From: Halorhodospira halochloris
GTDB taxonomy: Bacteria; Pseudomonadota; Gammaproteobacteria; Nitrococcales; Halorhodospiraceae
Assembly (NCBI RefSeq): GCF_002356555.2
Contig: NZ_AP017372.2
Span: 2,648,501-2,712,500, forward strand
Length of the DNA stretch: 64,000 bases
Direction: 5' to 3'
The notes beneath the pieces were generated by a model. That model was given only the letters and a program-made list of their open reading frames with translations. It was not told the origin of the DNA and made no database searches. Below are positions 8,821-37,862 of the stretch, piece by piece. Both the position numbers and the translations under genes were made by a program. The stretch's first letter is position 1. The number at the start of each line of letters is the position of its first letter.

Positions 8821-8875
8821 TGTTAACTGCTAAAATCGAAAAAGCACTCTCAGTGGAGCACATATTATCAGCAAC

Positions 8876-11166: not shown

Positions 11167-11216
11167 CTAGGGCACTTGCTTAGGGAAGACCCACGGCCTC
11201 CTCCACAATAAGGGTG

Positions 11217-11365
11217 CCTTTAAAACACCTCCCCGGCGCCATCATCCGATCTGCCCCGGTATTGAGGGCGCCGTGAACCCGTCACTGGAGGCTTCATGGC
11301 GCCATCCCTGGCGCAAAGAGCTCCGCACCGGGGCAGATGATGGCGCCGGGGAGTTTTTTTAGAGG
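11217..11365 (-). repeat. Intergenic palindromic repeat, copy R2 (core inverted)
   Basis: The left arm (11217-11260) and right arm (11327-11365) are near reverse complements, with shared CTCCCCGGCGCCATCAT and TGCCCCGGT blocks and outer ends CCTTTAAAAC / TTTTAGAGG. The core is in the opposite orientation to the other six copies: GGAGGCTTCATGGCGCCA reads as the complement of their TGGCGCCATGAAGCCTCC. It fills the gap between the convergent ends of pdxA and ksgA and could act there as a bidirectional terminator; the right end has a T7 run. Confidence 0.88.
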
Positions 11366-11420
11366 TTCCCAATAGGAGGCATGCGGCTGAGCGGGTTTCA
11401 GCGCTACTAAAAATCCCAAG

Positions 11421-12182
11421 TCATGCAGCGATGTTGACGAACTCTGCCACAGTTAGGCTCTCGGCACGCCGTCCTGGATCCACGCCTGCACGGACAATCT
11501 TCTGCTCATCGACCAAGCCACGTAGACTATTTCTAAGAGTCTTGCGACGGGTAGAGAAGGCTGCAGCTACCACTTTAGCGAACAGTTGTTCGTCCCTTGC
11601 CGCCGCGGGCAATTGCCGATAAGGCACCAGACGAGCGAAGCTAGACATAACTTTGGGAGCAGGAAAGAAGGCCCCGGCAGGAACATTAAAGCAGCGTTCG
11701 ACATGGCAGCGATACTGAATCATAACCGAAAGTCTGCCCCTGGCTTTGGATCCAGGAGCAGCAAGCATGCGGTCAACTACCTCCTTTTGCAGCAGCAAAT
11801 GCATATCTTCTATATGCTCTGCTACCGCCAATAAATGAAAGAGTATCGGCGTCGAAACGTTGTAGGGGAGGTTACCCACCACACGCAATCGCCCCTGATC
11901 CGGCAAATACGGTTGGAGATCTAGCTCAAGTACGTCTCCAACTAGAAGGTGCAAGCGTTGCCCAAAACGCTGCTCAAGAGCCAGCGCCAAATCTCTGTCC
12001 AACTCTACCGCTGTTAGGCTGCCCAGCCGATCCAATAATGGCTCCGTCAAGGCGCCCTGCCCCGGCCCAATCTCGAGCAGCTGCTGCCCTTGCTGGGGGG
12101 CAATGTGGGCAACCATGCGCTCTATAACTGCTCTATCATGCAGAAAATTTTGGCCGAATCGCTTCCTTGGCCGGTGGCTCAA
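11421..12182 (-). CDS. ksgA: 16S rRNA (adenine1518/1519-N6,N6)-dimethyltransferase
   Basis: A 253-residue KsgA/RsmA, which dimethylates two adenines in the 3'-terminal hairpin of 16S rRNA during 30S maturation. Motifs are [10 protein letters not shown] near the N-terminus, the SAM-binding [15 protein letters not shown], and the catalytic [15 protein letters not shown]. It starts with TTG, which overlaps the argH stop (TTGA), with GGGAGCGG correctly placed upstream. It is therefore the second gene of an argH-ksgA unit rather than following pdxA as in E. coli. Confidence 0.94.
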
Positions 12183-21993: not shown

Positions 21994-22455
21994 TTAAACT
22001 TTTACTTTGGCCGCCGCTGTCTCAAGGGCATGTCGCAAAGGCGCGGGCAGTTGTTGTCGAGGCTCGTAGTTCTCAAGCAGGTTTTTGATAGAGAGGCCTA
22101 AGGCTACGTCTCCCTCAACGCTCAATCGACGCCTAAAAAAGAGCATATCTGGATCGGCAGATCCCCCGGCCAGTGCTAAGAATGCGGCGGCATCTCCGCG
22201 GATTGAGACATCGGGCCTCTCCACCCTTGTGATGATCAAACGCTGGTCATTTAGCGAGATCCCAATATTTAGCCTCGCATCGGTAACCTCGAGTCTCACC
22301 GTCCGACCCTCAAGAACATCTAGCTCTCCCTCCTCCATCGCTTCAGCGAGGGCGTGGTGCAACATAATCGGTAAAATCCGAGCTGTCACCTGCTCTGGAG
22401 CAAAGCGCAGGGGCAGTAGGAAAAAAGGTAAAGCACGGTCGATGGAAAGCGTCAT
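21994..22455 (-). CDS. ubiT: SCP2-domain accessory factor of O2-independent ubiquinone synthesis
   Basis: A 153-residue protein with an SCP2 sterol-carrier fold (about residues 30-140). It includes GRTVRLEVTDARLNIGISL and the Ala/Gly-rich GDAAAFLALAGGSADPDMLFF stretch characteristic of UbiT/YhbT and UbiJ. Third of a ubiU-ubiV-ubiT set on the minus strand. UbiT binds quinone intermediates and replaces UbiJ under anoxia. Confidence 0.9.
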   Translation of the reverse strand: MTLSIDRALPFFLLPLRFAPEQVTARILPIMLHHALAEAMEEGELDVLEGRTVRLEVTDARLNIGISLNDQRLIITRVERPDVSIRGDAAAFLALAGGSADPDMLFFRRRLSVEGDVALGLSIKNLLENYEPRQQLPAPLRHALETAAAKVKV

Positions 22456-22521
22456 GATTCTATTGACTCCGATGCGGGTCTCTTTCTTTGCTTAGCGCTA
22501 TATTTTTACTGCTACAAACTA

Positions 22522-23427
22522 TTAAGTTTCTGCCTGGTAGTTTTCAACTGCTCGACTACCGCAGCCAGGTTGCCCCCACCAATAACCATCGCACTGCATG
22601 CCCGGGTCCGGTTCTGTCAGTTGCACGTCCTCACCATTAATGCCTGCGCGAAAGGCTTCCACGACCTCTGTCATATCAACAGGACGCGGCGATAACCGGA
22701 CAGCACTAACACCCATTTGCTTCATATCAGTTAGAGCAGGGAGCAAATTAAGGCAACCAAATGACTGTGCTTGTATTCCATTGATGGTCAGAAAACTCTC
22801 CCCCGCTCTGGTTACAACGCCCAACCCCTCTGGATGATTCTTGCATACAAAATCGCAGTCGTCCTTACCCAGACCATAATGTCGAGCAGTGAAGCAGCGG
22901 GCAGAAAAAGCCAGTGGCATCCGGCCATAAGCGTATACTTCCGTCTCCATCGGATCCTCACTAAGCTCAGCAAACTCAGACAGTACCTGACGCAGCCCTT
23001 GACCAGGCAATTCCACAGGCGGCACCCAGCGCCTAGCGCCCAATTTCTGCATCTCTCTGAGCGCGCGGCCACTGTAGATATTCAAGCTCGGACCGGCGAC
23101 AAACGGGGTCTTGTTGGCCTCAAGGAAGCTAATGGCGGTAAAGTCGTTCGCCTCAACCATAAAATCGCCGTTCTCGCACAAACGCTTTACTTGGGCGGCC
23201 TCTGAACGTGCTTCAACTAAACCCAGAGCAGAAAGCACAACCTCATGCCCCTCTTCAGCGAGTTCTTTGCCAAGGCCAACCCACTCCGCCGGCCCCATTT
23301 CACGGCGTCGCCCGCACACCGTCTCACCCAGATAGATTAGTTCCACCTTGCCGCGCAGCTGATCATAAAAAGACTTAATCTGCTCGGCAGGCCAGTAGTA
23401 CTGTATAGGTCCGAGGCTAATTCTCAT
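22522..23427 (-). CDS. ubiV: O2-independent ubiquinone hydroxylation protein UbiV (U32 family)
   Basis: A 301-residue U32-family protein. The 4Fe-4S cysteines line up with those known for E. coli UbiV: C38 (ETVCGRR), C178 (SARCFT), C191 and C195 (DDCDFVC). The ATG at 23427 (MRISLGPIQYYWP) is chosen because it matches family N-termini; the longer frame adds 38 non-homologous residues. With UbiU it forms a heterodimer that hydroxylates the quinone ring without O2, using prephenate as oxygen donor. This allows ubiquinone production in an anaerobic lifestyle. Confidence 0.93.
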   Translation of the reverse strand: MRISLGPIQYYWPAEQIKSFYDQLRGKVELIYLGETVCGRRREMGPAEWVGLGKELAEEGHEVVLSALGLVEARSEAAQVKRLCENGDFMVEANDFTAISFLEANKTPFVAGPSLNIYSGRALREMQKLGARRWVPPVELPGQGLRQVLSEFAELSEDPMETEVYAYGRMPLAFSARCFTARHYGLGKDDCDFVCKNHPEGLGVVTRAGESFLTINGIQAQSFGCLNLLPALTDMKQMGVSAVRLSPRPVDMTEVVEAFRAGINGEDVQLTEPDPGMQCDGYWWGQPGCGSRAVENYQAET

Positions 23428-23574
23428 TGCAGCATTCTCCACCCAAGTCTTTTGTAAATTTGCCGGTTGGGACAGGGCAAACACTACTCCTACAGGGAGC
23501 ATCATAAAATACCAGGTGGATCGATCGAAGCTTGTCGACACCGTCGCCTGAGGTACTGAAAAGCCCGCCAGAGG

Positions 23575-24570
23575 TTATTGCCATTTGCGCTCGTACGGAC
23601 CCAGGGTTGTAGTGCTGCCTTCACAGAGTTCTAGCAACTCGGCAACAAGCTCACTGTCGGGTTCAGTTCCGGCGGTGCCGGAATCAATCTCTTCGAGCAG
23701 CTGCCGCCATATTCGCGTGACTTTTCCAACATAAGCTGGGCTTCTCTGCCTGCCTTCAATCTTAATGGCCTGAATCCCGGCTTTTTTTAGCTGCGGGAGC
23801 AGTTCCGCAGTAGCCAGGCTTGTTGGCGACTCAAAGGCGTGCTCAACTGAGCCTTTAATGTCGTATCTGCCCTTACATATGGTCGGGTATCCAGCCGGTT
23901 CATCAGGAGCGAACCGGTCGATCAATATGCCGCCCAGGCGAACCTCACGGCCTCGATTGGTCTCTTGCCAGTCTACTGCCCAAGCTGGCGAACAGGCACC
24001 TACCGTATTCGGTGATTCCCCAGTAGCATACGAAGATAGCAAGCATCTTCCTTCTGCCATTACGCACAGTGACCCGAAGCCGAACACTTCCAGCTCTACA
24101 TTGGTCTCCTTCGCCAGTGCCTCTACTTGCTGTATAGAAAGCACCCGTGGCAACACTGCCCGCTTCACCCCATAGCGGCGCTGATAAAAATTTAGGGATT
24201 CCGGAGTGGTAGCTGATGCCTGAACCGACAGGTGGCGCGCAAGTTGCGGCCACTCCTGAGCTGCGTAGTCGATCAGCCCCAGGTCGGCTAGGATCACGGC
24301 ATCAGCTCCAACACGTCCTGCCTCATCTACAGAGCTGCGCCACTTATCCCAGCCATTTGCCTGAACGTAGGAGTTGATTGCAACAGCAACCTTTACTCCA
24401 TGTTCATGGGCATAGCTAACCCCTTTTGCAGCCTGCTGCGGGGTGAAATTCAAGCCTGGAAACTGTCGTGCATTGGTCTCGTCACGAAAACCTATATAGA
24501 CAGTATCGGCGCCATTGTCGACCGCAGCGCGCAGCGCTGTCAGGTTACCGGCTGGACTTAGCAGCTCCAT
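23575..24570 (-). CDS. ubiU: O2-independent ubiquinone hydroxylation protein UbiU (U32 family)
   Basis: A 331-residue U32-family protein beginning MELLSPAGNLTALRAAVDNG. The four cluster cysteines fall at C169 (SLCVMAEG), C176 (GRCLLSS), C193 (GACSPAW) and C232 (TICKGRY), the same positions reported for E. coli UbiU. First gene of ubiUVT; a 147-bp gap separates it from ubiV, so a second start site is possible. I could not find a convincing FNR box (TTGAT-N4-ATCAA) in the 213 bp upstream. Confidence 0.94.
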   Translation of the reverse strand: MELLSPAGNLTALRAAVDNGADTVYIGFRDETNARQFPGLNFTPQQAAKGVSYAHEHGVKVAVAINSYVQANGWDKWRSSVDEAGRVGADAVILADLGLIDYAAQEWPQLARHLSVQASATTPESLNFYQRRYGVKRAVLPRVLSIQQVEALAKETNVELEVFGFGSLCVMAEGRCLLSSYATGESPNTVGACSPAWAVDWQETNRGREVRLGGILIDRFAPDEPAGYPTICKGRYDIKGSVEHAFESPTSLATAELLPQLKKAGIQAIKIEGRQRSPAYVGKVTRIWRQLLEEIDSGTAGTEPDSELVAELLELCEGSTTTLGPYERKWQ

Positions 24571-24783: not shown

Positions 24784-26217
24784 ATGATCAAGAGAAAACT
24801 TATACCCTGCCTCATCTTAGGCGCCGCTCCATTACTAGCTCAAGCATCAGATGATGATTATTATCAGGGCTCATGGGAAGAATCTACGGAAGCTGCGCGC
24901 ACCTCTTTAGCACAGAACATATTTGTGCGTGTTGACAGTGACATACAAAGGGAAGTTGATACGGAAATATTTGACGACACTATACGCGACGAAGAGCGTT
25001 ACAAAGAGCGCGTGCGTCAGGAGACGACTCTTGATCTAACCGGGGTAGAGATTGAAGAAGATTCAGAAAGGGGGTATAGGGCTCGCATAAGCCGTGATGA
25101 TTTCAACCGTCAAGCAACGAGAAGTAAAAGAAATTTCCACGAGCGGTGTGTTGAAGACAACTTACCCAGCAGTTGGGATTCCCGCCGAGATTTCATCATG
25201 GACTGTTATCGAGATGCCAACGCCGTTCTCGCCATGACGTCAGTTGCCGGGCTCGGCACCGGTCAAGTCTCCAGTATGTTGGCCGATTTCAGCGACTGGA
25301 GTGAGCAAGGACTGCTGGTCGTATCCACCTCCCCCGATAAGTCATTTCGAGTCGATGGGCAGACGTATAGGTACGGGCAGGAAATACCCCTCTCAAGTGG
25401 AAGTTACACCATAAGCTGGGATAATCCTGGATATTGCCCAGTTGAGAAAGAGGTTGAAGTTGAGGCAGGAGAAATAACTGAAGCCTCAAAGGAATTGGAT
25501 GAGCTACCTACTATCGCTATAAGTAGCCGAACTCCTGGCGCACAACTCACTATAGATGGCAGATCAAGAAACCTTGGACAAACCTACACTCAGGATTCAT
25601 GTTCGGGTGAAGTCGCATACCAGGTTTCAAATGACTTTACTTCCCAGGAGCGCACAGTAAACCTCGAACCAGGGCTAGAATATACTAATACTGTCAACAT
25701 CATGACCGCTGACGATGCGCAAAGACTGGAAGAGCTAGCTTCTTCATACCGCGCGGATACTCGCTACAGGTTGCTGGTTGGCTATAGCTACGAGGATGAT
25801 CTGGAAGATGCTTACCGTGTTAGGCTAGAGCAGTCAACCGGGCGAGGCGCGGTGCGATACGGTTATGGCGTCTCGTACGGTTGGAACGACGCTACAGAGA
25901 TTGGCTTTTATGCCCAGGCAGCTTTACAGCTAGCTCAGTGGGGTGGAAAACCGCTACACTTAACGCCGAAGTTCGGCTTCATACCTTATGCAGGTCTCGA
26001 GTTGGGCCTTGCTTACCATGAACGCGAAGACAGCGATGGCAGCTCAGTAGATAGCTACGGCAGTGACTGGCATGATGACTACGTGCTATTCAGGTATATT
26101 GCTGGGCTTGATATACCAGTCGACGAATATCTTGGGTTTAGCTTGCAAATAGCTAAAGCTACAACTATGGAGGAATCCTGGGAATCCTCTTTTGGGCTAA
26201 CAATTGCTTTCGACTAA
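24784..26217 (+). CDS. Secreted PEGA-domain protein of unknown function
   Basis: A 477-residue protein with a signal peptide of about 21 residues (LAQASDDD). Residues about 35-110 are acidic and charged (EAARTSLAQNIFVRVDSD), reminiscent of LPP20-like lipoprotein N-domains. Four Cys occur in two pairs (HERCVEDN/IMDCYRD and PGYCPVE/QDSCSGE). Residues about 178-240 look like a PEGA domain (FRVDGQTYRYGQEIPLSSG), followed by a second similar beta segment (LTIDGRSRNLGQTY). The C-terminal 150 residues alternate hydrophobic and aromatic residues (YRLLVGYSYEDD, YGYGVSYGW, ending SFGLTIAFD), suggesting a small outer-membrane beta-barrel. It converges on the lipoprotein/transglycosylase locus and probably works with it. 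Function unknown. Confidence 0.75.
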   Translation: MIKRKLIPCLILGAAPLLAQASDDDYYQGSWEESTEAARTSLAQNIFVRVDSDIQREVDTEIFDDTIRDEERYKERVRQETTLDLTGVEIEEDSERGYRARISRDDFNRQATRSKRNFHERCVEDNLPSSWDSRRDFIMDCYRDANAVLAMTSVAGLGTGQVSSMLADFSDWSEQGLLVVSTSPDKSFRVDGQTYRYGQEIPLSSGSYTISWDNPGYCPVEKEVEVEAGEITEASKELDELPTIAISSRTPGAQLTIDGRSRNLGQTYTQDSCSGEVAYQVSNDFTSQERTVNLEPGLEYTNTVNIMTADDAQRLEELASSYRADTRYRLLVGYSYEDDLEDAYRVRLEQSTGRGAVRYGYGVSYGWNDATEIGFYAQAALQLAQWGGKPLHLTPKFGFIPYAGLELGLAYHEREDSDGSSVDSYGSDWHDDYVLFRYIAGLDIPVDEYLGFSLQIAKATTMEESWESSFGLTIAFD

Positions 26218-26297: not shown

Positions 26298-26873
26298 TTA
26301 ATTTCCAAGCTGCTCATCCATTCGGTTTAGGGCTTCTTGGCTCATAAACTGCTCACGCATCTCATCTTGGGTGAACGCATCTTCATCAGCGCCGGCCGCG
26401 CTTGCGACCTCTTCAAGGATAGCGTTTACGCTCGACTGCCCGACCGCCATCATGGAGCAAAACTCCTGATCTCCACCAGGCATGGTCACATAGTCACCCT
26501 TGATACGGTTAGATCCCTGTAACTCTTGTTCTACCACACCCCGGGTAACTTCCTCGAAGTGGGCTCCAGTAGAGATTTCGCCATCCGTTTCAATGGTACG
26601 CTCGTACTGTTCAGCCATTGACTCAATCTGGGTACCCATTTGGGCCGCCAACTGTTGTCGAGCCTGCAAGTCGGCGCGACTCTGGTCACGACTAAAGCTG
26701 CCGGCCGTGGCAACACAAGCGGTTGCTGCGAGCCCATCTTCGGCGTGCGGCTGAGTTACCCAATCGGGCAGGTCTGACATGTCCGGGTCGTCATCCTCAG
26801 GAGTTGTCTCGCAACCAACTACCAAAGCTAGCGGAAGACCCAACGCCAAGACCGATATAAGACTCTTTTTCAT
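26298..26873 (-). CDS. LPP20-like lipoprotein, copy 1
   Basis: A 191-residue lipoprotein. The signal peptide ends in lipobox LVVGC with C21 as the acylated cysteine, then an acidic linker (about 22-38), then a compact LPP20-like domain. Two cysteines (ATACVATA and EFCSMMA) are conserved in the paralogue at 29779 and might form a disulfide. AAGGAG lies just upstream of the ATG. It is the last gene of the string MltC-like 1 - Cys-cluster lipoprotein - this gene. LPP20-family proteins are envelope lipoproteins of mostly unknown role; some relatives (FlgP) support flagellar motors, but no flagellar gene is here. Confidence 0.8.
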   Translation of the reverse strand: MKKSLISVLALGLPLALVVGCETTPEDDDPDMSDLPDWVTQPHAEDGLAATACVATAGSFSRDQSRADLQARQQLAAQMGTQIESMAEQYERTIETDGEISTGAHFEEVTRGVVEQELQGSNRIKGDYVTMPGGDQEFCSMMAVGQSSVNAILEEVASAAGADEDAFTQDEMREQFMSQEALNRMDEQLGN

Positions 26874-26952
26874 AAAACTACTCCTTTCATCTACAACGGC
26901 ACCGCATTAGCACAGCCTCCACCCCATGTAATGGCGTGGGACTATACTCACT

Positions 26953-28173
26953 TCATTCATTAAACCCACTGTTTTCAAGCAACACGTACACAGTGGGCGA
27001 ACTGCCATCACCAACGAAACGAACTGATCGCACCATCGCCTCTACGGTTGCATCCGTCTCAGCGTGAGTTATTCGTCCGTAGTAGCCTCCCCCTGACGTG
27101 CGACCGATATTAATTTCTTCGCTTGTAATGTCAACGTGCTCGGAGCGAGCTATGCTTACCAAAGCCTCTTCAACAGCCCGCATAATCTTTTTGGACAGCA
27201 GGTTACGCGACAAATGGCCGGAGAAGGTGCCGATCTCTAGGCCTGGTGACTGAGACCTAAGTTCTCGGTGCCAGTCCCTATTCCACCTGTCTGACTCATC
27301 TGCTAGCACCACCCCCTTTAAAGCCACCCTGGCATATTTAAGGGTACCCTTTCGACAGGTGTTGGCCAGCACCATATTCGGGTCAGCGCCCTGCTCAAAC
27401 TCCAGACTCGACTCTTCAACGTGGTTAAGGCTTAGTCCGCGGGAAGAGTCGCTAGTCTCACTGACCTGTTCGTATGACTGGACATCAACCCCGTACATGG
27501 CTTGAATCTGGTCAAGGGCATTATCAAAAAAAAGGCTGTATTGGGTGGGCAGGTTTGCAGCTATTTGGCTAACCGTAACTACTGAGGCATAATCGAGATC
27601 CGCACCATCTGCACACAACCACTCAGGGTCGCATTTCTCTGGCTGGCATTTGCGCTCAGGGCACTCCTCACGAATCCAGCCAGGATCACTCCTGTCAACG
27701 ATATAAGCATAACCAAAGTGATAGTTGCCGTCAGTCCACACCGGGGCGAGAGCAACTTCTTGACTACCCAGATGATAAGGCCCTGCGCCTTCCAACTCGT
27801 CTTTGCTCGGCGCACTAACCCCGAGCATGTCAGCTACCGATTCCATAGCACGGTGTTGGCTCAGCTTTTCTAGATCCGTGCCTGGTGAACCGAAACGTCC
27901 CGCAATGCCAATTGCACCTTTGGCGTCTTCGCCGTAGGGAGAACTCAACCAACACGGCTCATCGGCATAGCTAAAGTCCTCATCATCAGCCGGGTGCTGC
28001 TGCGTCCCTGAACACCCCCCCTGTAACAACACCAAGAGCACTACGAGTGCTAATGGCAAAGCGCCTAAACCTCCATAGAGGGGTTGCAGATGGCGCGTTA
28101 GGGAATTTCTTACAAGCCCCCGATTGCTATGGTACCCCTGACAAAGGCACCACTCCCCCCGCCTAGGTGACAT
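26953..28173 (-). CDS. Large putative lipoprotein with cysteine cluster, LPP20-neighbourhood, unknown function
   Basis: A 406-residue protein. A long basic N-region (about 35 residues) precedes a hydrophobic segment LPLALVVLLVLL and the sequence QGGC (Cys54), a possible but atypical lipobox because Gln occupies the -3 place. The mature part has the WLSSPYGEDAKGAIGIAGRFG motif near its start, echoing the DWVTQPHAEDGLAATACVATA start of the two LPP20-like proteins, so it may be a distant relative. Residues 171-187 hold four cysteines spaced C-x4-C-x4-C-x5-C. The ATG at 28173 has AGAGGA 7 bases upstream; the MltC-like stop lies 11 bp before it, so the genes are coupled. I do not recognise a known function. 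Confidence 0.7.
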   Translation of the reverse strand: MSPRRGEWCLCQGYHSNRGLVRNSLTRHLQPLYGGLGALPLALVVLLVLLQGGCSGTQQHPADDEDFSYADEPCWLSSPYGEDAKGAIGIAGRFGSPGTDLEKLSQHRAMESVADMLGVSAPSKDELEGAGPYHLGSQEVALAPVWTDGNYHFGYAYIVDRSDPGWIREECPERKCQPEKCDPEWLCADGADLDYASVVTVSQIAANLPTQYSLFFDNALDQIQAMYGVDVQSYEQVSETSDSSRGLSLNHVEESSLEFEQGADPNMVLANTCRKGTLKYARVALKGVVLADESDRWNRDWHRELRSQSPGLEIGTFSGHLSRNLLSKKIMRAVEEALVSIARSEHVDITSEEINIGRTSGGGYYGRITHAETDATVEAMVRSVRFVGDGSSPTVYVLLENSGFNE

Positions 28174-28183
28174 GGCCATTCCT

Positions 28184-29329
28184 CTAAAACTCTCTGTACG
28201 CCTCAGTCCTGCTCGCCACGTTTACCAGGTAGTTGCGTGTCTCTTCGTACGGCAGATCCTCAAGCATCCGTTCATAAACCTCTTCGGGCTCCATACTGTT
28301 TATAACCTCTGCAGCTTCGGCAACGTTTGTACCGTCTACAAAAGTCCTAGCTACATTACCCGCCCCGGTGTTATATGCGGCTATAACTGCATACATCCTG
28401 CTTTCAGGGTCTTCAATGCTTGATAGATGTGAAGACTCGAGTATGTCCAAGTAGGCCGCCCCCGCTTGGATATTATTCTCAGCGTTATATAAGTAATCAG
28501 GCGATAACAGGCGTGGCTCGCCATAAACCTGCTGCGCTATGTCTTTGCCCGCGGTCTCCGGCACAATCTGCATCAAGCCATAAGCGGGAATATGGGACCG
28601 AGCCATCGGGTTGAAGCTGCTCTCGCTGTGCATAATTGCCATCATTAAGGCCTCATCCACCCCATACTCCTGGGCTTCACGCTCGATTTGAGCACGATAT
28701 TCCTCGGCTTTATCACTCGGCCTTTTCTCTGGCATAGGCACAGACATTGATATAACTCCGCGTGAATCGTCGCCTTTAGGCTCTTCCCGCTCCTCCACCT
28801 CTGCCTTCTCAATCATCCGCTCGGCGTCTTCGGGAGAGATCTCATTGAGTACCCTTTCATTGCCTGCCGATGTCGGCGCACCATCACCCAGGTCTACCTT
28901 TTCTTGAGTTCTCTGCGTAACCTCATCGCCTTCGTAGGCCTCATCCATGGTCCGGTTAAGCAAGTCATCGAACTTGAGCATTAACCCCTCAGCACCTTCA
29001 TCTTCGGGCACATCAACGGTGATCTCGTTCTCTTCATAGTCGACTACCGAGCGCGAGCTTTGATCCTCGCTGTATTCAACCCAGCGGTGGCGATCGCTTA
29101 CCTGGGGATCCTCCCACTGCGAGCGCAGCTCTTCCTGATATGCCTCGAACTCTTCATGAAATGTATCTTGGAATTCTTGGAAGGACTCCCGGAACTCGTC
29201 CCGATGATCCTCAAACGCCTGCTGTCTTTCCTGCTGAAATTCCTCGAAGCGATCCTCAACAGACCAAGTCAGAATCGGCACCGAACACAAGACCATCCCC
29301 GCCCCTATAAGGATATAGTTAGCTCTCAT
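28184..29329 (-). CDS. MltC-like membrane-bound lytic murein transglycosylase, copy 1
   Basis: A 381-residue lytic transglycosylase. The N-terminus has a signal/anchor segment without a clear lipobox, then a Glu/Gln/Phe-rich coiled coil with repeated E-F units (about 26-70), then an MltC_N/DUF3393-like region (about 75-200). The SLT catalytic domain runs from about 212 to the end. The catalytic glutamate is about E236 in HSESSFNPMA; AYGLMQIVP and AAYNTGAGNVAR complete the goose-type lysozyme signature. It would cleave peptidoglycan glycan strands, forming 1,6-anhydro-MurNAc that AmgK-MurU recycling could partly recover. It heads a three-gene string with two lipoproteins. Confidence 0.88.
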   Translation of the reverse strand: MRANYILIGAGMVLCSVPILTWSVEDRFEEFQQERQQAFEDHRDEFRESFQEFQDTFHEEFEAYQEELRSQWEDPQVSDRHRWVEYSEDQSSRSVVDYEENEITVDVPEDEGAEGLMLKFDDLLNRTMDEAYEGDEVTQRTQEKVDLGDGAPTSAGNERVLNEISPEDAERMIEKAEVEEREEPKGDDSRGVISMSVPMPEKRPSDKAEEYRAQIEREAQEYGVDEALMMAIMHSESSFNPMARSHIPAYGLMQIVPETAGKDIAQQVYGEPRLLSPDYLYNAENNIQAGAAYLDILESSHLSSIEDPESRMYAVIAAYNTGAGNVARTFVDGTNVAEAAEVINSMEPEEVYERMLEDLPYEETRNYLVNVASRTEAYREF

Positions 29330-29404
29330 CCCAACACCTATCTATTTCCTGCACGGTCTCAATGGCTATCCTACCTTCGAGTTCATAAATGGCACAAGGG
29401 GGAA

Positions 29405-29546
29405 CCTCTACAAACTTCGCCGGCGCCACCATCCACCCCGGTGTGGAGATCTTGGCGCCAGGGATGGCGCCATGAAGCCTCCAGGGATGGATTCACGGCG
29501 TCCTCCACACCGGGGCGGATGGTAGCGCCGGCGAAGTTTATAGAGG
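29405..29546 (+). repeat. Intergenic palindromic repeat, copy R3
   Basis: The left arm (29405-29447) and right arm (29504-29546) are near-perfect reverse complements over about 43 bp, with outer ends CCTCTA and TAGAGG. Arms contain TTCGCCGGCGCCACCATC where R2 has CTCCCCGGCGCCATCATC. The core holds TTGGCGCCA-GGGA-TGGCGCCA and CCAGGGATGGATTCACGGCG. It sits between the two MltC/LPP20 modules, upstream of the MltC-like copy 1 gene. Confidence 0.92.
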
Positions 29547-29778
29547 CCACCAAGGGGCAGGGATATAATTCGATCTGGCTGCTGTGTAAGCGGCAGGGAA
29601 AAGGCAACAAAAACCTTCTTCTGCATACATATAATAGGATACTGCGTGGTACAATATTTAGTATCGCGCAGTATCCAGAGCTTCACCATCGCACAGCTCA
29701 GAGTGGCAAATTTTAGTAACCCGAACCAAAGCCACTCTTAAATCTAATTAGTCTGGACAGGCAATAGCTACGCTGACC
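29547..29778. other. Gene-free stretch with two hairpins between repeat R3 and LPP20-like copy 2
   Basis: No credible gene. Two inverted repeats stand out. GGATACTGCG (29637-29646) pairs with CGCAGTATCC (29667-29676) around a 20-base AT-rich loop. GAGTGGC (29701-29707) pairs with GCCACTC (29731-29737). Either could end minus-strand transcription of the upstream module. Together with R3 the whole gap between genes (29330-29778) is almost 450 bp, the longest in the window. Confidence 0.5.
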
Positions 29779-30360
29779 TCAGTTGCCCAGTTGCCTATCC
29801 ATCCTGTTCAACGCCTCTTGGCTCATGAATTGCTCACGCATTTCCCCTTGAGTAAACACTTCCTTATCAGCGCCGGCGGCTGATGCCACCTCATCCAGAA
29901 TAGCATTAACGCTCGATTGGCCAATTGCCATCATCGAACAGAATTCACTGTTGCCATTAGGCATGGTTACATAATCACCCTTGATACGGACTGATCCCCG
30001 CAATTCTTGCTCGATAACACCCCTGGTTACCTCTTCAAAATGGGCTCCTGTAGTGATCTCTCCGTCCGTCTCAATGGTCCGCTCGTACTGCTCCGCCATT
30101 GACTGAATCTGTATGCCCATCTGCGCTGCTAGTTGCTGCCTTGCCTGCAAATCGGCTCTACTTTGATCACGGCTAAAGCTATTCGCCGTTGCTACGCAAG
30201 CTGTTGCTGCCAGACCATCTTCCGCAAATGGCTGTGTTACCCAGGATGGAAGACTGGCAAGGTCTACATCATCTTGCTGATCCTCTGGAGTACTACCGCA
30301 CCCTGAAACCACGGCAAGTGGCAATGATATCAGTAGAGCAGACAAAAATTTTCTGTTCAT
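29779..30360 (-). CDS. LPP20-like lipoprotein, copy 2
   Basis: A 193-residue paralogue of the protein at 26298-26873. Lipobox VVSGC gives C21; an acidic linker follows, then the same LPP20-like domain with conserved FSRDQSRADLQARQQLAAQM, QYERTIETDGEI and the cysteines in ATACVATA and EFCSMMA. Mature parts are nearly identical, while signal peptides and linkers differ, as expected for paralogues under constraint. The ATG at 30360 has GAGGAA at good spacing; an upstream TTG (30375) is less likely. It follows the MltC-like copy 2 gene by 89 bp. Confidence 0.8.
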   Translation of the reverse strand: MNRKFLSALLISLPLAVVSGCGSTPEDQQDDVDLASLPSWVTQPFAEDGLAATACVATANSFSRDQSRADLQARQQLAAQMGIQIQSMAEQYERTIETDGEITTGAHFEEVTRGVIEQELRGSVRIKGDYVTMPNGNSEFCSMMAIGQSSVNAILDEVASAAGADKEVFTQGEMREQFMSQEALNRMDRQLGN

Positions 30361-30449
30361 AAAACAGTTCCTCAAGATACAATAATTCTAATTACGCTAA
30401 ACTGTTATAGTACGCGTTCTGATACGACTCCAACTAATCTCTTCCCTCC

Positions 30450-31604
30450 TCAAAAGTTACGATATGCCTCAGTACGACTAGCAACGTGCACAAGATAATT
30501 TCTGGTCTCATCGTAAGGAAGATCGGCTAGCAGGCGCTCATATACCTCGTGCGGAGTGAGATCGTTGATAACTCTAGCTGCTGCCCGTATATTACGACCA
30601 TCAACAAAAGCCCTAGCAACATTGCCTGCACCCGTATTGTATGCGGCTATTACGGCATACATCCTGCTTTCAGGGTCTTCTATTGCTGAAAGATAGCTGT
30701 AAAAGAGAATATTCAAGTAGACAGCGCCAGCTTGAATATTATTTTCAGGGTTGTACAAGTATTCTGGAGAGAGAAGCTTCATCTCGCCATAAACACGCTG
30801 TGCCACGTCTTTACCTGCAGTCTGCGGGACAATCTGCATCAACCCGAACGCTGGTATATGCGAACGCGCCATTGGATTGAAACTACTTTCGCTATGCATG
30901 ATAGCGATCATCAGGGCTTCCTCAACTTCGTAGCGCTCCGCGTGGCGCCTGATCTGCTCGCGAAACTCCTCCACTTTGCGGCTAGGGCGCTGCTCCGGCA
31001 TGGGCACTGTAAGTGATATAACGCTGCGGCTCTCTTCGCCCTTAGGCTCTTCACGCTCTTCAAGCTCAGCCTGGGAGATCATCTCATCGAGATCTTCAGG
31101 TTTTATCTCACTGAGGACCCGCTGATCACTTGCAGCCTCTGGGGCATCTTCGCCTAGACCAACTCGCTGCTGAGTACGCTGGGTAACTTCATCTCGATCA
31201 TAGGCCTCATCCATGGTGCGCCCCAACAGATCATTAAGATGGGACAAAACCCCCTGAGTCCCAGCTTCTGAAGGGACATCGATGGTTATGCTATTTTCCT
31301 CATAATCCACCACCGTCCTTGAGCTCTGATCATCGCTATACTCAACCCAGCGATGTCTATCGCTTATCCGAGGCTCGCGCCAATTTGCCCGGAGCTCCTC
31401 CTGATAGGCTGCAAACTCTTCATGAAAGGCGTCCTGAAACTCCTGAAAGGCCTCTTGAAAATCACTTTGATGTTGCTCAAATGCTTGTTGGCGCTGCTGC
31501 TGAAAACGCTCGAAAGCACTTACTTCAGACCACGCAAGCATCGGCACCGTGACAAGACTGACCGCCACCCCAAAACCTAAACCGATTAGGCCGTACCGAG
31601 CCAT
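30450..31604 (-). CDS. MltC-like membrane-bound lytic murein transglycosylase, copy 2
   Basis: A 384-residue paralogue of the protein at 28184-29329 with the same layout: a hydrophobic N-terminal segment (GLIGLGFGVAVSLVTVPML), a Gln/Phe/Glu coiled coil, an MltC_N-like region and the SLT domain with HSESSFNPMA, AFGLMQIVP and AAYNTGAGNVAR. The ATG at 31604 has GAGGAGG 7 bases upstream. Differences from copy 1 concentrate in the linker (about 100-205) and in QIRRHAERYEVEEALMIAI before the catalytic glutamate. Together with the lipoprotein downstream it forms the second module. Confidence 0.88.
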   Translation of the reverse strand: MARYGLIGLGFGVAVSLVTVPMLAWSEVSAFERFQQQRQQAFEQHQSDFQEAFQEFQDAFHEEFAAYQEELRANWREPRISDRHRWVEYSDDQSSRTVVDYEENSITIDVPSEAGTQGVLSHLNDLLGRTMDEAYDRDEVTQRTQQRVGLGEDAPEAASDQRVLSEIKPEDLDEMISQAELEEREEPKGEESRSVISLTVPMPEQRPSRKVEEFREQIRRHAERYEVEEALMIAIMHSESSFNPMARSHIPAFGLMQIVPQTAGKDVAQRVYGEMKLLSPEYLYNPENNIQAGAVYLNILFYSYLSAIEDPESRMYAVIAAYNTGAGNVARAFVDGRNIRAAARVINDLTPHEVYERLLADLPYDETRNYLVHVASRTEAYRNF

Positions 31605-31775: not shown

Positions 31776-33572
31776 TTAGCGCTTCTTCTTTGGGATCAAA
31801 TCAGTCAACGTGCCTGCCGCAGCTTCGGCAGCCATAGCAACCGTCTCGGAAAGGGTAGGATGGGGGTGTACCGTCAAACCGATATCGTGGGCTTCGGCGC
31901 CCATCTCAATGGCTAGGACCACCTCGGCGATTAGCTCGCCAGCACCGGGGCCGACGATGCCACCGCCGATAACGCGGCCGCTTTCTGAGTCGAAGAGAAG
32001 TTTTGTTAAGCCGTCACCACCCCCCAGAGATAACGCCCGGCCGTTAGCTGCCCAAGGGAACATCCCTTTTTCATAGTTGATCCCTTGCGCTCGTGCTTGC
32101 TCCTCAGTCAACCCTACCCAAGCCACTTCCGGGTCAGTATAGGCAACCGAAGGTATAGCCCTAGCATCCCAGGCACTGCGCTCACCACTGCAGACTTCTG
32201 CTGCTATCTTGCCTTCGTGCACAGCCTTATGCGCCAGCATCGGCTGCCCGACCAAATCACCTATAGCGTAGATATGCGCCGCAGCGGTGCGCATATGCTC
32301 ATCGACTGCGATAAATCCTTGCTCATCAACACTCAAACCGGCCTCGGCAAGGCCAATGCCGTGCCCATTCGGGCTCCTACCAACCGCCACCAGCACCTTA
32401 TCAAATCGCTCACTACTCTCTCCTTCGCTGCCCTCCATGGCTACAGTTAGCGATTTCTTATTGGCCTTTATCGCGGTAACTTTGGTATTTAGATAAATCG
32501 AATCGCAGCGCTTATCGAGGCTTTTGCGTAAAACCTTAACCAAATCCTTATCTACCCCCGGTAGCAGCCGGTCAGCCAATTCTACTACGGTAACCTTAGA
32601 GCCGAGCCCGCTGTAAACCGAGGCCATTTCAAGGCCAATAATCCCGCCCCCTATGACCAAGAAGCGCTCCGGGATCTCGTCTAACTGCAAAGCTCCCGTC
32701 GAATCGATAATCCGCTCGTCGCCCATATCAATCCCGGGCGGCACCACCGGGCTTGAGCCTGTAGCCAAGATGCACTGGCGGAAACTTAGAGTTCGCGTCT
32801 CCCCTTGTCCCTCAACGTGGAGGCTGTGCGAATCGAGCAATCTCCCCCGACCGGTGACCACCTCAACCTTACGTTGCTTAGCCAACCCGGCCAAGCCATC
32901 GGTAAGTTGCTTAACGACACTGCGTTTCCATGCGTTGAGTTGATCTAGATTTACCTTCGGCTTGCCGAAGCTGATTCCGTGCTCCCCCATCTGTTCGGCC
33001 TCGTCCTTGACCTTGACAGCATGGAGCAGGGCCTTCGACGGTATACAGCCGACATTCAAACAGACTCCGCCGAGGACTGGGTACTGATCAACCAAGATGA
33101 CTTTCAGCCCCAAGTCAGCGGCGCGGAAAGCGGCAGAGTAGCCACCCGGCCCCGCACCGAGGACTAACAGATCGCAATCAGGGTTCGCCGGCGTCTCACC
33201 TGCCGCCGGCGCCGGCTCCTGGCCACTCGCCACGCTACTGCTGGCTTGTCCTGAGGCGCTCTCCGCCCCCTGATCGCTAGTAACTGGCTTAGCACCAGCA
33301 TCGGCACCAGTGTCGATGTCGGTATCGGTCGCTGCTTCTGCCTCCAAGGTTAAGATTACACTGCCTTGTGAGACACGGTCACCAACACCTACTTGGAGCT
33401 CCTTCACAACTCCTGCAGCACTAGCCGGCACCTCCATGCTTGCCTTGTCCGACTCTAAGGTAATCAGTGGCTGTTCGTGCTCGATGCGATCTCCCGGAGC
33501 GACTAACACCTCGATTATTTCCACATCCTCGAAATCGCCAATATCCGGTACTTTAAGCTGTTGCTCTGCCAT
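31776..33572 (-). CDS. lpdA: Dihydrolipoamide dehydrogenase with N-terminal lipoyl domain (E3 of pyruvate dehydrogenase)
   Basis: A 598-residue E3. Residues 1-80 are a lipoyl domain with the modified lysine in [10 protein letters not shown], then a flexible Ala/Ser/Gly linker (80-130). The flavoprotein part has LVLGAGPGGYSAAFRAADLG (FAD), the redox-active disulfide in GGVCLNVGCIPSKALLH, an NAD-binding GGGIIGLEMASVYSGLG, and the dimer-interface HPHPTLSE with the catalytic His. It reoxidises dihydrolipoamide of AceF. The lipoyl domain is clearly related to that of AceF next door. Repeat R4 separates it from aceF. Confidence 0.95.
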   Translation of the reverse strand: MAEQQLKVPDIGDFEDVEIIEVLVAPGDRIEHEQPLITLESDKASMEVPASAAGVVKELQVGVGDRVSQGSVILTLEAEAATDTDIDTGADAGAKPVTSDQGAESASGQASSSVASGQEPAPAAGETPANPDCDLLVLGAGPGGYSAAFRAADLGLKVILVDQYPVLGGVCLNVGCIPSKALLHAVKVKDEAEQMGEHGISFGKPKVNLDQLNAWKRSVVKQLTDGLAGLAKQRKVEVVTGRGRLLDSHSLHVEGQGETRTLSFRQCILATGSSPVVPPGIDMGDERIIDSTGALQLDEIPERFLVIGGGIIGLEMASVYSGLGSKVTVVELADRLLPGVDKDLVKVLRKSLDKRCDSIYLNTKVTAIKANKKSLTVAMEGSEGESSERFDKVLVAVGRSPNGHGIGLAEAGLSVDEQGFIAVDEHMRTAAAHIYAIGDLVGQPMLAHKAVHEGKIAAEVCSGERSAWDARAIPSVAYTDPEVAWVGLTEEQARAQGINYEKGMFPWAANGRALSLGGGDGLTKLLFDSESGRVIGGGIVGPGAGELIAEVVLAIEMGAEAHDIGLTVHPHPTLSETVAMAAEAAAGTLTDLIPKKKR

Positions 33573-33590
33573 CACTGCCTATCCTTTAAT

Positions 33591-33757
33591 CCTATAAGGA
33601 ACCCCTAATCCCCCCAGGGGCCCAATTGGTTGCCCAAGGTGGAGGTCTTGGCGCCAAGGATGGCGCCATGAAACCTCCAGGGATGGATTCAGGCGTCCTC
33701 CACCCTGGGGCAGCCGACTGGGCTTTCCGAGGGAGTTTTTAGCGGCGCTCTATAGGA
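33591..33757 (+). repeat. Intergenic palindromic repeat, copy R4
   Basis: Lies between aceF and lpdA inside the pdh gene string. Outer ends CCTATA and TATAGG; arms are diverged but still pairable (CCCAAGGTGGAGG against CCTCCACCCTGGGG). The core has TTGGCGCCA-AGGA-TGGCGCCATGAAACCTCC and CCAGGGATGGATTCAGGCG. It would be transcribed from the minus strand as a large hairpin in the aceF-lpdA spacer. Confidence 0.88.
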
Positions 33758-33789
33758 AACCGCTAAAACCCACAACGCTTAGAGGCGCC

Positions 33790-35181
33790 CTAAAGCACCA
33801 ACCGGCGCAGATCTCCCAAAACCTTCGCCAAAAAGTTAGTAAAGCGCGCCGCCATCGCCCCGTCGATCACTCGATGATCGTAAGAGAGTGACAACGGCAA
33901 CATTAATCGGGGCTCGAATTCTTTGCCGTTCCAAACCGGCTTAGTAGCTGAACGCGATGCGCCTAGAATCGCCACCTCGGGGGCATTAACGATGGGTGTA
34001 AAGGCAGTCCCGCCAATGCCACCGAGGCTGGAAATAGTGAAACAGCCACCTTGCATATCGGCGGAAGAGAGCTTGCCCTGGCGGGCCTTTTGCGAGATCT
34101 CACCTAATTCAGCAGCAATCTCCATTACCCCCTTACCATCAACTCCACGCAGTACCGGCACTACTAAGCCATCCGGTGTATCGACAGCAACACCGATGTT
34201 GCAGTACTTCTTGACGATTAGCTCCTGGCCGTCCGCAGCCAAACTGGAGTTAAACCGTGGCATCTCGTGCAGGGCAGCGCTCACCGCCTTAACCAGAAAC
34301 GCCAGCGGGGTGAGCTTGACCCCGCGGTTTTCCGCTTCTGGCTGCATAGATTTACGAAACGATTCCAACTCGGTGATATCCGCCTCATCGAACTGAGTGA
34401 CGTGGGGAACATTGAGCCAGCTGCGGTGCAAATGGGGGCCCGAGAGGCGCTGAATCCGGGTCAATGGTACCCTCTCGACCTCGCCAAACTGGCTAAAATC
34501 TATCTCTGGTAGCGGCGGAATTGCCCCACTTGCGGTGCCTTCTGCAGCTGGCCCTGGTGCTGCACTAGTTGCTGCCGCTTGCTGCATTGTCTGCTTAACA
34601 AAGGCCTGGACATCGTCTTTGCGAATCCTACCGTAGCGCCCGCTCCCGCTGACCAGGCCAAGATCGACCCCCAGCTCGCGGGCGTAGCGGCGTACCGCTG
34701 GGCTAGCGTGGGCGGCACGATGCCGCTCGCGATCGATGCGTGCGTCACTCGCGCCCGCAGCCTCAGAAGCCGGAGCAGCAGCGCTCGATTCTGGTGACGC
34801 TGCAACCTCCGCTTGAGGGGTAGCGGCAGCACCTGCCGAAGCGCTCTCCTCCGCGGCACTAGGTGTCGCCGCCGCCTGCTCACTGGCCCCGGTAGCGGCC
34901 TGGCCACTATCAACGGTGGCTGAATCCTGAGACTCGGCAGCAGCCGCAGTATCCAGGGTAAGAATGACGCTGCCCTCCGAGACGCGGTCCCCCACCCCGA
35001 CGTGGAGCTCTTGGACTACGCCACCGGCGCTCGACGGCACTTCCATGCTCGCCTTATCCGATTCCAGTGTGATCAGCGATTGCTCCGGGGCAACCACATC
35101 CCCCGGAGCAACCAACACCTCGATGATTTCTACATCTGCAAAATCGCCGATATCAGGGACCTTGACTTGTTCAACTGCCAC
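33790..35181 (-). CDS. aceF: Dihydrolipoyllysine acetyltransferase (E2 of pyruvate dehydrogenase)
   Basis: A 463-residue E2 with one lipoyl domain (residues 1-78, lysine in [10 protein letters not shown]), a long Ala/Ser/Glu linker, a peripheral subunit-binding domain (about 155-195, [16 protein letters not shown]) and the catalytic core (about 230-463, ending with [17 protein letters not shown]). E. coli AceF has three lipoyl domains, so this is the short form. The GTG start at 35181 lies two bases after the aceE stop, whose last codons overlap the GGGAGGTG ribosome site. Confidence 0.95.
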
Positions 35182-35183
35182 GG

Positions 35184-37862
35184 TCACACCTCCCACGGAT
35201 TAGCGGCATCAGTGGCAAGTCCATACTCTTTCACGGCCTGTCCTACCTTAGCCGCATCAATCTCACCCTGCTCAGCCAGCGCCCACAATGCCGTCGTCGT
35301 GATCTGGTAGCGATCAACCTCAAAGAAGCGGCGCAGACTCTCGCGAGTATCCGAACGCCCGAAACCATCGGTCCCCAGCACCCAGTAGGGCCGATCAATA
35401 TACGGCCTAACCTGCTCGGCGTAGGCGCGGACATAATCGGTCGCGGCGACAGCAGGTCCCGTATAATCGGCCAAGCACTGCTCGATATAGGGGCGTGCAG
35501 CTTTGCTAGCGCCGTGCAAGCGCTGCTGACGCTGACAGCTCATGCCGTCTCGAGCCAGCTCAGTAAATGATGGACAACTCCAAATGTCGGCCTGCACCCC
35601 CCAGTCGTCTTCAAGCAGCTGCGCCGCTGCCATCACTTCGCGCATGATACTTCCGGAACCGAGCAGCTGAACCCGCGGCGCATCAGACGCAGCATCACCG
35701 TGGCTAAAGCAGTACATGCCGCGCAGGATGCCCTCCTCGACCCCCTGCGGTAACGCCGGCTGCGGGTAGTTTTCGTTATATATAGTGATATAGAAGAAGA
35801 CATTATCCTGATCGGCAAACATCCGCTGCATACCGCCTTGGAGAATAACCGCAAGCTCATAAGCAAAGGCCGGATCGTAGCTGATGCAGTTAGGAATAGC
35901 CGAAGCCAAAAGGTGGCTATGGCCATCCTGGTGCTGCAGCCCCTCGCCGTTGAGCGTAGTCCGGCCTGCGGTGCCGCCCATTAAGAAGCCGCGCGCCTGG
36001 ATATCGCCCGCCGCCCAAATAAGATCCCCGACACGCTGGAATCCGAACATTGAGTAGAAGATATAGAATGGGACCATATTAACGCCGTGATTAGCGTAAG
36101 CCGTAGCAGCGGCTATCCAGGTCGACATAGCCCCCGCTTCGTCGATCCCCTCTTCCAAGATCTGACCCTTCTTATCCTCTTTATAAAACATCAATTGATC
36201 GGCATCCTCGGGCTCGTAGAGCTGCCCGACCGAGGAGTAGATGCCAAGCTGACGAAATAGCCCCTCCATACCGAAGGTGCGCGCCTCATCCGGGACTATC
36301 GGTACGATATTCTGACCAACATTCTTATCCCGCGTCAGTGCCGTCAGGGCACGGACAAAGGCCATTGTGGTCGACTGCTCGCGATCGCCACTGCCCTCAA
36401 GCAGGGCCTTAAACGTATCCAGCTGCGGAACCTCTAGCGCCGGCGCCCGCTGCACTCGCTGCGGCAGGTAACCACCGAGGGCTCGGCGGCGCTCGTGCAG
36501 GTAGCGAATCTCCGGGGCATCATCATCCGGCTTGTAGAACGGCGTCTCTTTAAGCTGCTCATCTGGGATGGGAATCTCGTAGTGATCGCGAAACTTACGC
36601 AGCGCGCTCTCGCCCATCTTCTTTTGCTGGTGAGTAATGTTCTGGCCCTCACCAGCCTCACCCATGCCGTAACCCTTGACTGTCTTCGCTAAGATGACCG
36701 TCGGCTGACCGGTGTGATTGACTGCGGCGTGGTAGGCGGCATAGACCTTATGCGGATCGTGGCCACCGCGGTTAAGGCGGTAGATGTCGTAGTCCGACAT
36801 GCCCGCGACCATCTGCTCTAGCTCGGGATACTTAGCAAAGAAGTGCTTGCGCGTATAGTCGCCGCCGCGAGCCTTGAACGCCTGATACTCGCCGTCGACG
36901 CACTCCTCCATGCGCTGCTGCAACAGCCCGGTGTGATCCATCTCCAGCAGCGGATCCCAGCGCGACCCCCAAATGACCTTGATGACGTTCCAGCCAGCGC
37001 CGCGAAACTCGCCTTCAAGTTCCTGAATAATCTTACTATTGCCGCGCACCGGACCATCTAGGCGCTGTAGGTTGCAGTTAACGACAAAGATCAAATTATC
37101 CAAGTTTTCGCGCGCGGCGGTATCGATTGAGCCGAGAGATTCAGGCTCATCCATCTCGCCATCGCCCATGAAGGCCCAGACCTTGCGCCCCGAGGTGTCA
37201 CGGATACCCCGATCGTGCATATAGCGCATGAACCGGGCCTGTTGCACAGCTTGAATCGGCCCCAGCCCCATAGATACGGTGGGGAATTGCCAAAAGTCCG
37301 GCATCAGCCACGGATGCGGGTAAGAACTGACCCCCTGACCATCGACGTCGCGCCGGAAGTTGCTGATTTGCTCTTCACTCAATCGCCCTTCGAGGAAGGC
37401 CCGGGCATAGATACCTGGTGCAGAGTGGCCTTGAATAAAGACCATATCGCCATCTTGTTCGGCATTAGGCGCCCGCCAAAAGTGGTTAAAGCCGATTTCG
37501 TAAAGCGTGCAGGCCGATGCATAGCTAGCGATATGGCCGCCGATACCATCATTTTGACGATTGGCATTGACCACCATAGCGATAGCATTCCAGCGCACCA
37601 GCGAGCGGATGCGCCACTCTAGGTGGTGATCGCGATACTCCGGTGGGCGGGCCTCAAGGTGGCGGGGAATGGTATTGATGTAGCCTGTGGTGGCCTTAAA
37701 CGGTAAGTGGCCGCAGCGCCGGCGACCTTTCTCTACCAACTTCTCGAGTATGAAGTGGGCCCTCTCTGGCCCTTCGTTATCGATTACAGCATCCAGGGCC
37801 TCAAGCCACTCTTGGATCTCCTCCGGATCGGGATCGTCGTGCAACTGCGGTATAGCAGCCAT
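35184..37862 (-). CDS. aceE: Pyruvate dehydrogenase E1 component, homodimeric type
   Basis: An 892-residue homodimeric E1, normal length for the gammaproteobacterial enzyme. It decarboxylates pyruvate with ThDP and acetylates the lipoyl group of AceF. The ThDP motif [10 protein letters not shown] and following [20 protein letters not shown] are intact, as is [19 protein letters not shown]. Located downstream of fba and pyk in the minus-strand carbon block. AGAGGTGATGT precedes the ATG. Confidence 0.97.

Follow-up and report, generated by a model that had tools for sequence, protein, structure and literature searches.

A duplicated pairing of an MltC-like lytic transglycosylase with an LPP20-type lipoprotein in Halorhodospira halochloris and its recurrence across bacterial phyla

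Why should the gene for an enzyme predicted to cut cell-wall glycan lie beside the gene for a small lipoprotein, and why should this happen twice in one short region? The question is raised by a 64,000-nucleotide stretch of the Halorhodospira halochloris genome (hereafter the window; positions 2,648,501-2,712,500 of a single contig of 2,834,560 bases), in which an initial annotation, made from the sequence letters, had pointed out two modules pairing an MltC-like transglycosylase with an LPP20-like lipoprotein. Both modules are present as described, each with the enzyme followed by the lipoprotein on the minus strand, and all of the named open reading frames (ORFs) are open. Their parts are as follows (coordinates within the window):

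30450-31604, minus strand: MltC-A, an MltC-like lytic transglycosylase of 384 residues, with a signal peptide lacking Cys, catalytic Glu E239, and matches to SLT and MltC models
31377-31523, minus strand: hendecad (11-residue) aromatic/Glu stalk of MltC-A, residues 28-76, from repeat analysis and the stalk profile
29779-30360, minus strand: LPP-A, an LPP20-type lipoprotein of 193 residues with lipobox Cys21, from profile, predicted fold and the invariant Cys
28184-29329, minus strand: MltC-B, an MltC-like lytic transglycosylase of 381 residues, with a Cys at residue 15 outside any lipobox
29111-29257, minus strand: hendecad stalk of MltC-B, from repeat analysis and the stalk profile
26298-26873, minus strand: LPP-B, an LPP20-type lipoprotein of 191 residues, from its ORF, its similarity to LPP-A and the invariant Cys

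The pair was found far beyond this strain, so that the restriction to one strain which the initial annotation had named as refuting its proposal does not apply, and a working partnership, as proposed there, is the simplest reading of its recurrence. The neighbourhood survey covered the best 80 of 517 MltC-like loci confirmed in a scan of genome contigs, 79 of which had a called MltC-like ORF (L084 had none). A short LPP20 gene (120-260 residues, including a smaller group of 126-150 residues; recognized by a profile of its own, widened by similarity regardless of position) lies within one gene of the enzyme in 35 of the 79 loci and within three genes in 40, and was uncalled in 36. Searching these 36 loci in all frames turned up one further gene, in L076 and directly behind the enzyme, together with a 92-residue fragment in L112; with L076 included, the counts become 36, 41 and 35, respectively. 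Where frames overlap, the ORF caller used at first retains the longest, hiding genes in G+C-rich contigs (the MltC-like and lipoprotein genes of genome G130 in L136, and the lipoprotein gene of L076); hence, counts of absence are upper bounds. Seven of the 36 loci were shorter than 10 kb. Linkage is tight, with short LPP20 genes filling 47 of 433 gene slots at a distance of one to three genes, compared to 4 of 735 further out. Nearly all adjacent junctions (35/36) are on the same strand, with gaps of -11 to 180 bp; the lipoprotein gene precedes the enzyme gene in 27 of them and follows it in 8. Directly neighbouring pairs were seen in Pseudomonadota, Campylobacterota, Aquificota and Deferribacterota, and a pair within three genes also in a Nitrospirota metagenome-assembled genome (MAG). 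Mapped onto the tree of the enzymes, pairing requires 13 changes, versus 29 when shuffled (L076 labelled unpaired).

Co-occurrence was assessed in 114 genomes drawn evenly from the class, with matches to the lipoprotein profile counted as strong at E <1e-40 and MltC-like matches counted at E <1e-30. All four genomes, other than the host's own, with both a strong lipoprotein match and an MltC-like gene have the two within 3 kb. Partner distances are also correlated (r = 0.60, 31 of 38 pairs after near-copy removal, reached in 0 of 2,000 permutations) when left uncorrected for species descent, although common descent alone can produce correlated partner trees. Overall, some functional partnership between the MltC-like enzymes and the LPP20-type lipoproteins is likely. 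Further neighbours recur at these loci, namely LPP20-long proteins, a CsgG-like family (by reading), LpoB, a COG3014-like TPR protein and ETEC_3214-domain proteins. Loci L074, L075 and L081 (hosts Litorilituus, Idiomarina and Pseudoalteromonas distincta) share a long conserved same-strand run at about 3800-11700, comprising several envelope genes with the MltC-like and LPP20 genes at its end.

What kind of enzyme is paired in this way? Both window copies match the SLT domain PF01464 (MltC-A 91.8 bits, E 2.8e-26; MltC-B 87.3 bits, E 7.1e-25) and score 193 and 181 bits, respectively, against the NCBIfam MltC equivalog NF008670, under its cut-off of 375, which makes them MltC-like and not MltC. 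The MltC N-terminal domain PF11873 reaches 17 bits against a cut-off of 22.6; the corresponding region of 4c5f and 9vi7 does align with the family profile. A PF11873 search of 54 genomes of the order returned nothing, the window's own two copies included, so the model is too strict for this group. E239 of MltC-A aligns with the catalytic Glu of Escherichia coli MltC, a position that is Gln in 4cfo and that the accessible part of one source numbers E217 (PMC12861720). Neither MltC-A nor MltC-B has a lipobox, and the pattern is present in 6 of 87 MltC-like proteins.

Both enzymes carry an N-terminal stalk. The Glu/Phe coiled coil that had been noted ahead of the MltC part is real, but it is common in this branch and not special to the two window enzymes: in the 87 MltC-like proteins, this segment has aromatic residues every 11 positions (3.9-fold enrichment at lag 11), and 61 of them have at least four aromatics in the 11-residue register, compared to about 1% of shuffles (the other 26 have fewer). 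By alignment, E. coli MltC has only the last part of the stalk helix, before a conserved Trp. A hidden Markov model (HMM) of the stalk, built from MltC-like proteins only, was searched against 1,364 non-MltC proteins and gave seven matches at E <0.01, six of them to members of a transglutaminase-like family (TGL, described below) and one to an ORF of 150 residues lying immediately upstream of a gene for an MltC-like protein; the seventh TGL followed at E 0.12, behind an unrelated protein at 0.11. A stalk profile (A7) was further searched in 20 whole genomes, 12 chosen for the pair or the lipoprotein and 8 for having no lipoprotein match. The 15 matches at E <0.01 were to ten MltC-like proteins, four TGLs and one FecR-domain protein. 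The best match in the eight genomes chosen for having no lipoprotein match was at E 0.09, an unrelated protein reached E 0.05 in the lipoprotein genome G128, and the window's own genome yielded only the two MltC stalks. The FecR-domain protein (L154:1387-2232(-)) has a similar hendecad stalk and is followed by a CHASE2 gene; its genome, G157, also has a stalked MltC-like enzyme and a TGL.

The two lipoproteins are closely alike, as had been claimed (81% identical), and prove LPP20-like only by profile and fold comparison. Against the Pfam LPP20 family (PF02169, cut-off 25.9), LPP-A scores 13 bits and LPP-B has no match, while relatives in L051 (44.7) and L096 (32.8) pass. A profile of 34 relatives matches Helicobacter pylori Lpp20 (5ok8, E 7.6e-13), and the lipobox Cys (Cys21 of LPP-A) is invariant in all 34. 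An AlphaFold2 model of LPP-A (mean pLDDT 77, pTM 0.66) also has 5ok8 as its best match in VIA-align (Z 13.2, root-mean-square deviation 2.0 over 105 residues), followed by Tip-alpha (Z 8.1-8.6); Foldseek alone placed Tip-alpha first at E 0.018 and found nothing under 0.001. Structures of FlgP and FlgT were absent from the VIA-align rows, an absence without weight in either direction. By profile and model, the window lipoproteins are predicted to share the LPP20/SHS2-like fold. In the model, helices at residues 62-97 and 105-122 precede a strand at 124-132, with residues 91-110 at low pLDDT (63-65).

The second stalked family, TGL, comprises proteins of about 500 residues with an invariant DCEDRS motif, a His and a DPTY motif, in which C422, H449 and D477 are invariant in 7/7 members. 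A Cys-His-Asp triad marks transglutaminase-like enzymes. The members are:

L130:8003-9517(+), TGL
L136:7265-8833(-), TGL
L137:9488-11095(+), TGL
L104:7128-8720(+), TGL
L067:205-1674(+), TGL
L068:11089-12531(+), TGL
L059:3470-4885(+), TGL

None of the seven matches an NCBIfam model and none a Pfam model at cut-off; the best Pfam score is 20.0 bits for PF04473 (cut-off 20.5, one member), and PF01841 matches two members weakly. A predicted TGL model was too poor (pLDDT 56) and had no significant fold match, and a PDB profile search gave chance-level matches only. In the 114 class genomes, TGL is present in seven of the eight with a strong lipoprotein match, leaving aside the host's own (G128 is the exception), and in none of 105 others (P = 2e-10). 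Without the three genomes whose TGLs, being next to a lipoprotein gene, had been used to build the TGL profile, the counts are 4/5 and 0/105 (P = 9e-7). The TGL and lipoprotein genes are on different contigs in G056, G097 and G102. In G130 and G157, genes for all three proteins (MltC-like, lipoprotein and TGL) are clustered on a single strand, and in G120 they are clustered across both strands. L068, a MAG contig titled Helicobacter pylori, holds the pair as well as TGL, and its title may be a mislabel.

How did the window come to hold two modules? MltC-A and MltC-B are 71% identical in protein but 40% at third codon positions (nonsynonymous divergence, dN, 0.23), and the two lipoprotein genes are 42% identical at third positions (dN 0.14); synonymous divergence (dS) could not be estimated because synonymous sites are saturated. 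For comparison, third-position identity between the window copies and those of two other genomes of the genus is 35-40% (G002) and 31-37% (G006). A recent tandem duplication was rejected, since the copies (0.40 and 0.42 at third positions) barely exceed this between-species level. The split of the two modules is thus old, and both copies look selectively maintained. In the MltC tree, MltC-B groups with the enzymes of G006 and G003 (support 90/89, under the starred level) and MltC-A falls outside, while the lipoprotein tree leaves the matter open; separate acquisition of the two copies is possible. Strong MltC-like matches occur in four of nine genomes of the genus (G000, G002, G003 and G006), and all four have an LPP20 gene within about 5 kb. 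G002 has one module at the same place as the window, with the same flanking neighbours (L042), and a second LPP20 gene (L048:8302-9057(-)) about 0.9 kb from a convergent gene (5345-7423(+)) that we take to be soluble-transglycosylase-like. The stretch in G003 (L044) holds two MltC-like genes, one gene each for LpoB, LPP20-long and LPP20-short proteins, and presumably a COG3014-like gene. In G006, at another place (L043), the order is MltC, third lipoprotein, LPP20-type lipoprotein. The G006 module (L043:3198-7518(-)) runs on into a protein with weak resemblance to LPP20 and PEGA, a 669-residue protein whose C-terminus reads as barrel-like, and a DUF6175 protein.

One further gene lies within module B and another beside it in the window:

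26953-28179, minus strand: third envelope protein, containing a pair of LPP20-like repeats, at residues 43-125 and at 177-244, and an uncertain lipid anchor (non-canonical lipobox)
24784-26217, plus strand: PEGA-domain protein (P0006) of 477 residues, with a C-terminus that is barrel-like by sequence reading

The third lipoprotein had been taken as a gain by one module. A relative (42% identity) lies between the MltC and lipoprotein genes of G006, where no lipobox is seen by eye, and another (E 1e-32) lies near the lipoprotein-MltC pair, with one gene between, in a Pseudomonadales MAG (L060). Given these relatives, two losses, one in module A and one in G002, are a more economical account than acquisition by module B, so the gene was probably lost from module A. 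A PDB profile search with this protein gave no matches. The PEGA/barrel gene converges on the module, as had been seen, and it probably belongs to the module and is not a chance neighbour, because its single match among the collected neighbour proteins (1,332 + 121) directly adjoins the MltC-lipoprotein pair of Marinospirillum perlucidum (488 residues, 35% identity, E 1e-84). The M. perlucidum MltC-like enzyme is the best match outside the genus (58% identity), and no relative of P0006 was found at E 0.001 in the other eight genomes of the genus. From these sequences we read the module and its PEGA/barrel protein as having been exchanged horizontally, in either direction, between the Halorhodospira and Marinospirillum lineages.

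How, then, might the enzyme and the lipoprotein work together? Linkage, co-occurrence, a common stalk, an enzyme without an anchor and a partner with a constant anchor combine to favour an outer-membrane scaffold, and our best explanation, which as a whole we hold tentatively, is that the LPP20 lipoprotein serves in this way for stalked wall enzymes without a lipid anchor. On this view, a conserved envelope module occurs in the window in one local, duplicated version. The lipoprotein, placed in the outer membrane, would act as scaffold and address, and the transglycosylase, secreted without a lipid anchor, would be kept by its hendecad stalk on the face of the cell wall nearest the outer membrane. 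The stalk may self-associate, dock on the LPP20 protein along its long helices, or both; that it tethers the enzyme to the lipoprotein is plausible, with a chance somewhat short of even. E. coli MltC has an N-terminal lipid anchor, and the lipoprotein would thus provide in trans what that enzyme has in cis. Glycan cutting might in this manner be placed where LPP20-family assemblies form, whose other parts would be LPP20-long, CsgG-like and LpoB-like proteins elsewhere and the PEGA/barrel protein here. Elsewhere, the transglutaminase-like family bears a similar stalk. A wider version, in which the stalk is a docking tag by which unrelated proteins of the periplasm (MltC-type enzymes, TGLs and at least one FecR-domain protein) assemble on a single LPP20 scaffold as an undescribed multi-enzyme machine, located between the outer membrane and the wall and present in several phyla, is doubtful.

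A number of observations weigh against the scaffold. The association of MltC-like and lipoprotein genes across the class is modest (4/8 versus 9/105 genomes, P = 0.006), and four of the eight lipoprotein-bearing genomes other than the host's own lack an MltC-like enzyme. G137 has an MltC-like gene with only a weak lipoprotein match, on different contigs. LPP20 occurs without a strong MltC-like match in G008, of the same genus, and G009, of the same family. Conversely, 35 of the 79 MltC-like loci have no LPP20 gene in the fetched flanks, including 12 of 13 Sulfurimonadaceae rows, and several Sulfurimonadaceae enzymes without a linked lipoprotein carry the stalk, which hence does not need one. 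As a mark of pairing, the missing lipobox found no support, since paired and unpaired enzymes are much alike (lipobox in 2/46 and 4/41, respectively). As for TGL, five of the other 105 genomes have weaker LPP20 matches and no TGL, and the family was found in none of the nine Halorhodospira genomes, so the two-enzyme picture is inapplicable to the window's host. The stalk profile A7 missed three of the seven known TGLs, and short aromatic/Glu helices can converge. Some choices also bear on these associations: lipoproteins chosen for lying next to MltC were the source of the lipoprotein profile (A4), the 1e-40 line was set after seeing a gap from 7e-45 to 7e-18, and three of the TGLs had been spotted by eye, each in its own contig, before the stalk-profile search.

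Could the lipoprotein instead be mainly a regulator, activating or restraining the transglycosylase, with localization secondary? LpoB activates or controls PBP1B, and EnvC and NlpD do likewise for amidases. LpoB-family genes (PF13036, 134 and 135 bits) are found repeatedly in the clusters that hold the pair, and an H. pylori study (PMC11394524) describes hp0018 homologues as syntenic with those of HP1457, which it labels a homologue of LpoB, and names MltD and AmiA as candidate partners of HP0018. However, no inhibitory segment was noticed, and the feature held in common is the stalk, also found on TGL and one FecR protein, and not the catalytic domain. We consider regulation as the main role to be rather unlikely.

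An outer-membrane ring or pore built by LPP20-domain proteins (as for FlgP, FlgT and CsgG), with the MltC-like enzyme opening the wall for its assembly, is improbable, even though the clusters also hold LPP20-long and CsgG-like proteins and the PEGA/barrel protein adjoins the module both in the window and in Marinospirillum. One small neighbouring lipoprotein is weakly like FlgT_N, at 18.2 bits against a cut-off of 28.8, and no Pfam match above threshold backs the CsgG-like label. The accessible text of PMC12222027 gives LPP20, FlgP and FlgT a common SHS2-like fold and links ring formation with an insert that follows the SHS2 helix and precedes the second strand, a beta-hairpin in FlgP; in the LPP-A model, at low pLDDT in part, the insert at this place looks helical. 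Mere co-regulation of envelope genes with no physical contact, improbable too, would suit the many lipoproteins without an MltC-like enzyme and the many MltC-like enzymes without a lipoprotein, but not the repeated tight same-strand linkage in both gene orders and several phyla, nor the co-occurrence of TGL with the lipoprotein even when unlinked.

Returning to the window, the repeat that separates the two modules lies outside the system:

29405-29546, no strand: R3, a copy of a palindromic repeat family dispersed genome-wide

R3 does stand between the modules, as the initial annotation stated. The genome holds 40 copies, this one included, that cover 128-142 of 142 bases at ≥94% identity (40 of 344 candidates scored), and such dispersal leaves its position between the modules with little meaning. 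Its core has four matches in the window (29405-29546, 2847-2879, 11274-11306 and 33659-33691), and it is possibly a family like the repetitive extragenic palindromic (REP) elements or the miniature inverted-repeat transposable elements (MITEs). Upstream of the modules are ORFs that we take to be a pyruvate dehydrogenase cluster (31776-37862), and downstream are presumably two genes for U32-peptidase-like proteins and one for an SCP2-like protein (21994-24570). Promoter-like matches (7 versus 7.6 expected from shuffled sequence) and terminator-like matches (3 versus 5.7) are at or below chance, and thus do not mark out transcription units at the modules.

Gram-negative bacteria have many redundant lytic transglycosylases, and how these are positioned and held in check is an open question. 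If the scaffold explanation is true, a conserved and portable stalk with a dedicated outer-membrane lipoprotein would be a directly testable mechanism of enzyme placement, and a role would be assigned to part of the largely uncharacterized LPP20 family, with a transglutaminase-like companion family. No description of MltC/LPP20 pairing, of a hendecad stalk on a transglycosylase, or of TGL with LPP20 was found among the papers listed from the accessible literature, most subscription papers being outside the search; the accessible parts of PMC11768039 and PMC3234257 mention Lpp20 and transglycosylases separately.

Among known systems, the window lipoproteins resemble the LPP20 family, represented by H. 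pylori Lpp20 (5ok8), in profile, fold and lipobox Cys, and differ from it in scoring under the Pfam cut-off and in being paired with a cell-wall enzyme. They share the SHS2-like LPP20 fold with the flagellar disk and ring proteins FlgP and FlgT, as reported in the accessible text of PMC12222027, and seem to differ in the insert, which looks helical in the LPP-A model, where residues 91-110 are of low pLDDT. An origin from flagellar FlgO, FlgP or FlgT, considered on account of this shared fold, was rejected, as the insert seems to differ in the model and flagellar genes went unnoticed next to the modules, where no systematic search was made. The enzymes resemble E. coli and Acinetobacter baumannii MltC (4c5f and 9vi7), in that the family profile aligns with 4c5f over profile positions 54-385 and the catalytic Glu is aligned, and differ in having a stalk of about four hendecad repeats, no lipobox, and scores of 181-193 bits versus 375. 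Finally, in LpoB-PBP1B, an outer-membrane lipoprotein controls a wall enzyme. That system is similar in its combination of an outer-membrane lipoprotein with a wall enzyme partner, and LpoB homologues occur in related clusters, whereas the partner here is a stalked transglycosylase and the lipoprotein fold is that of LPP20.

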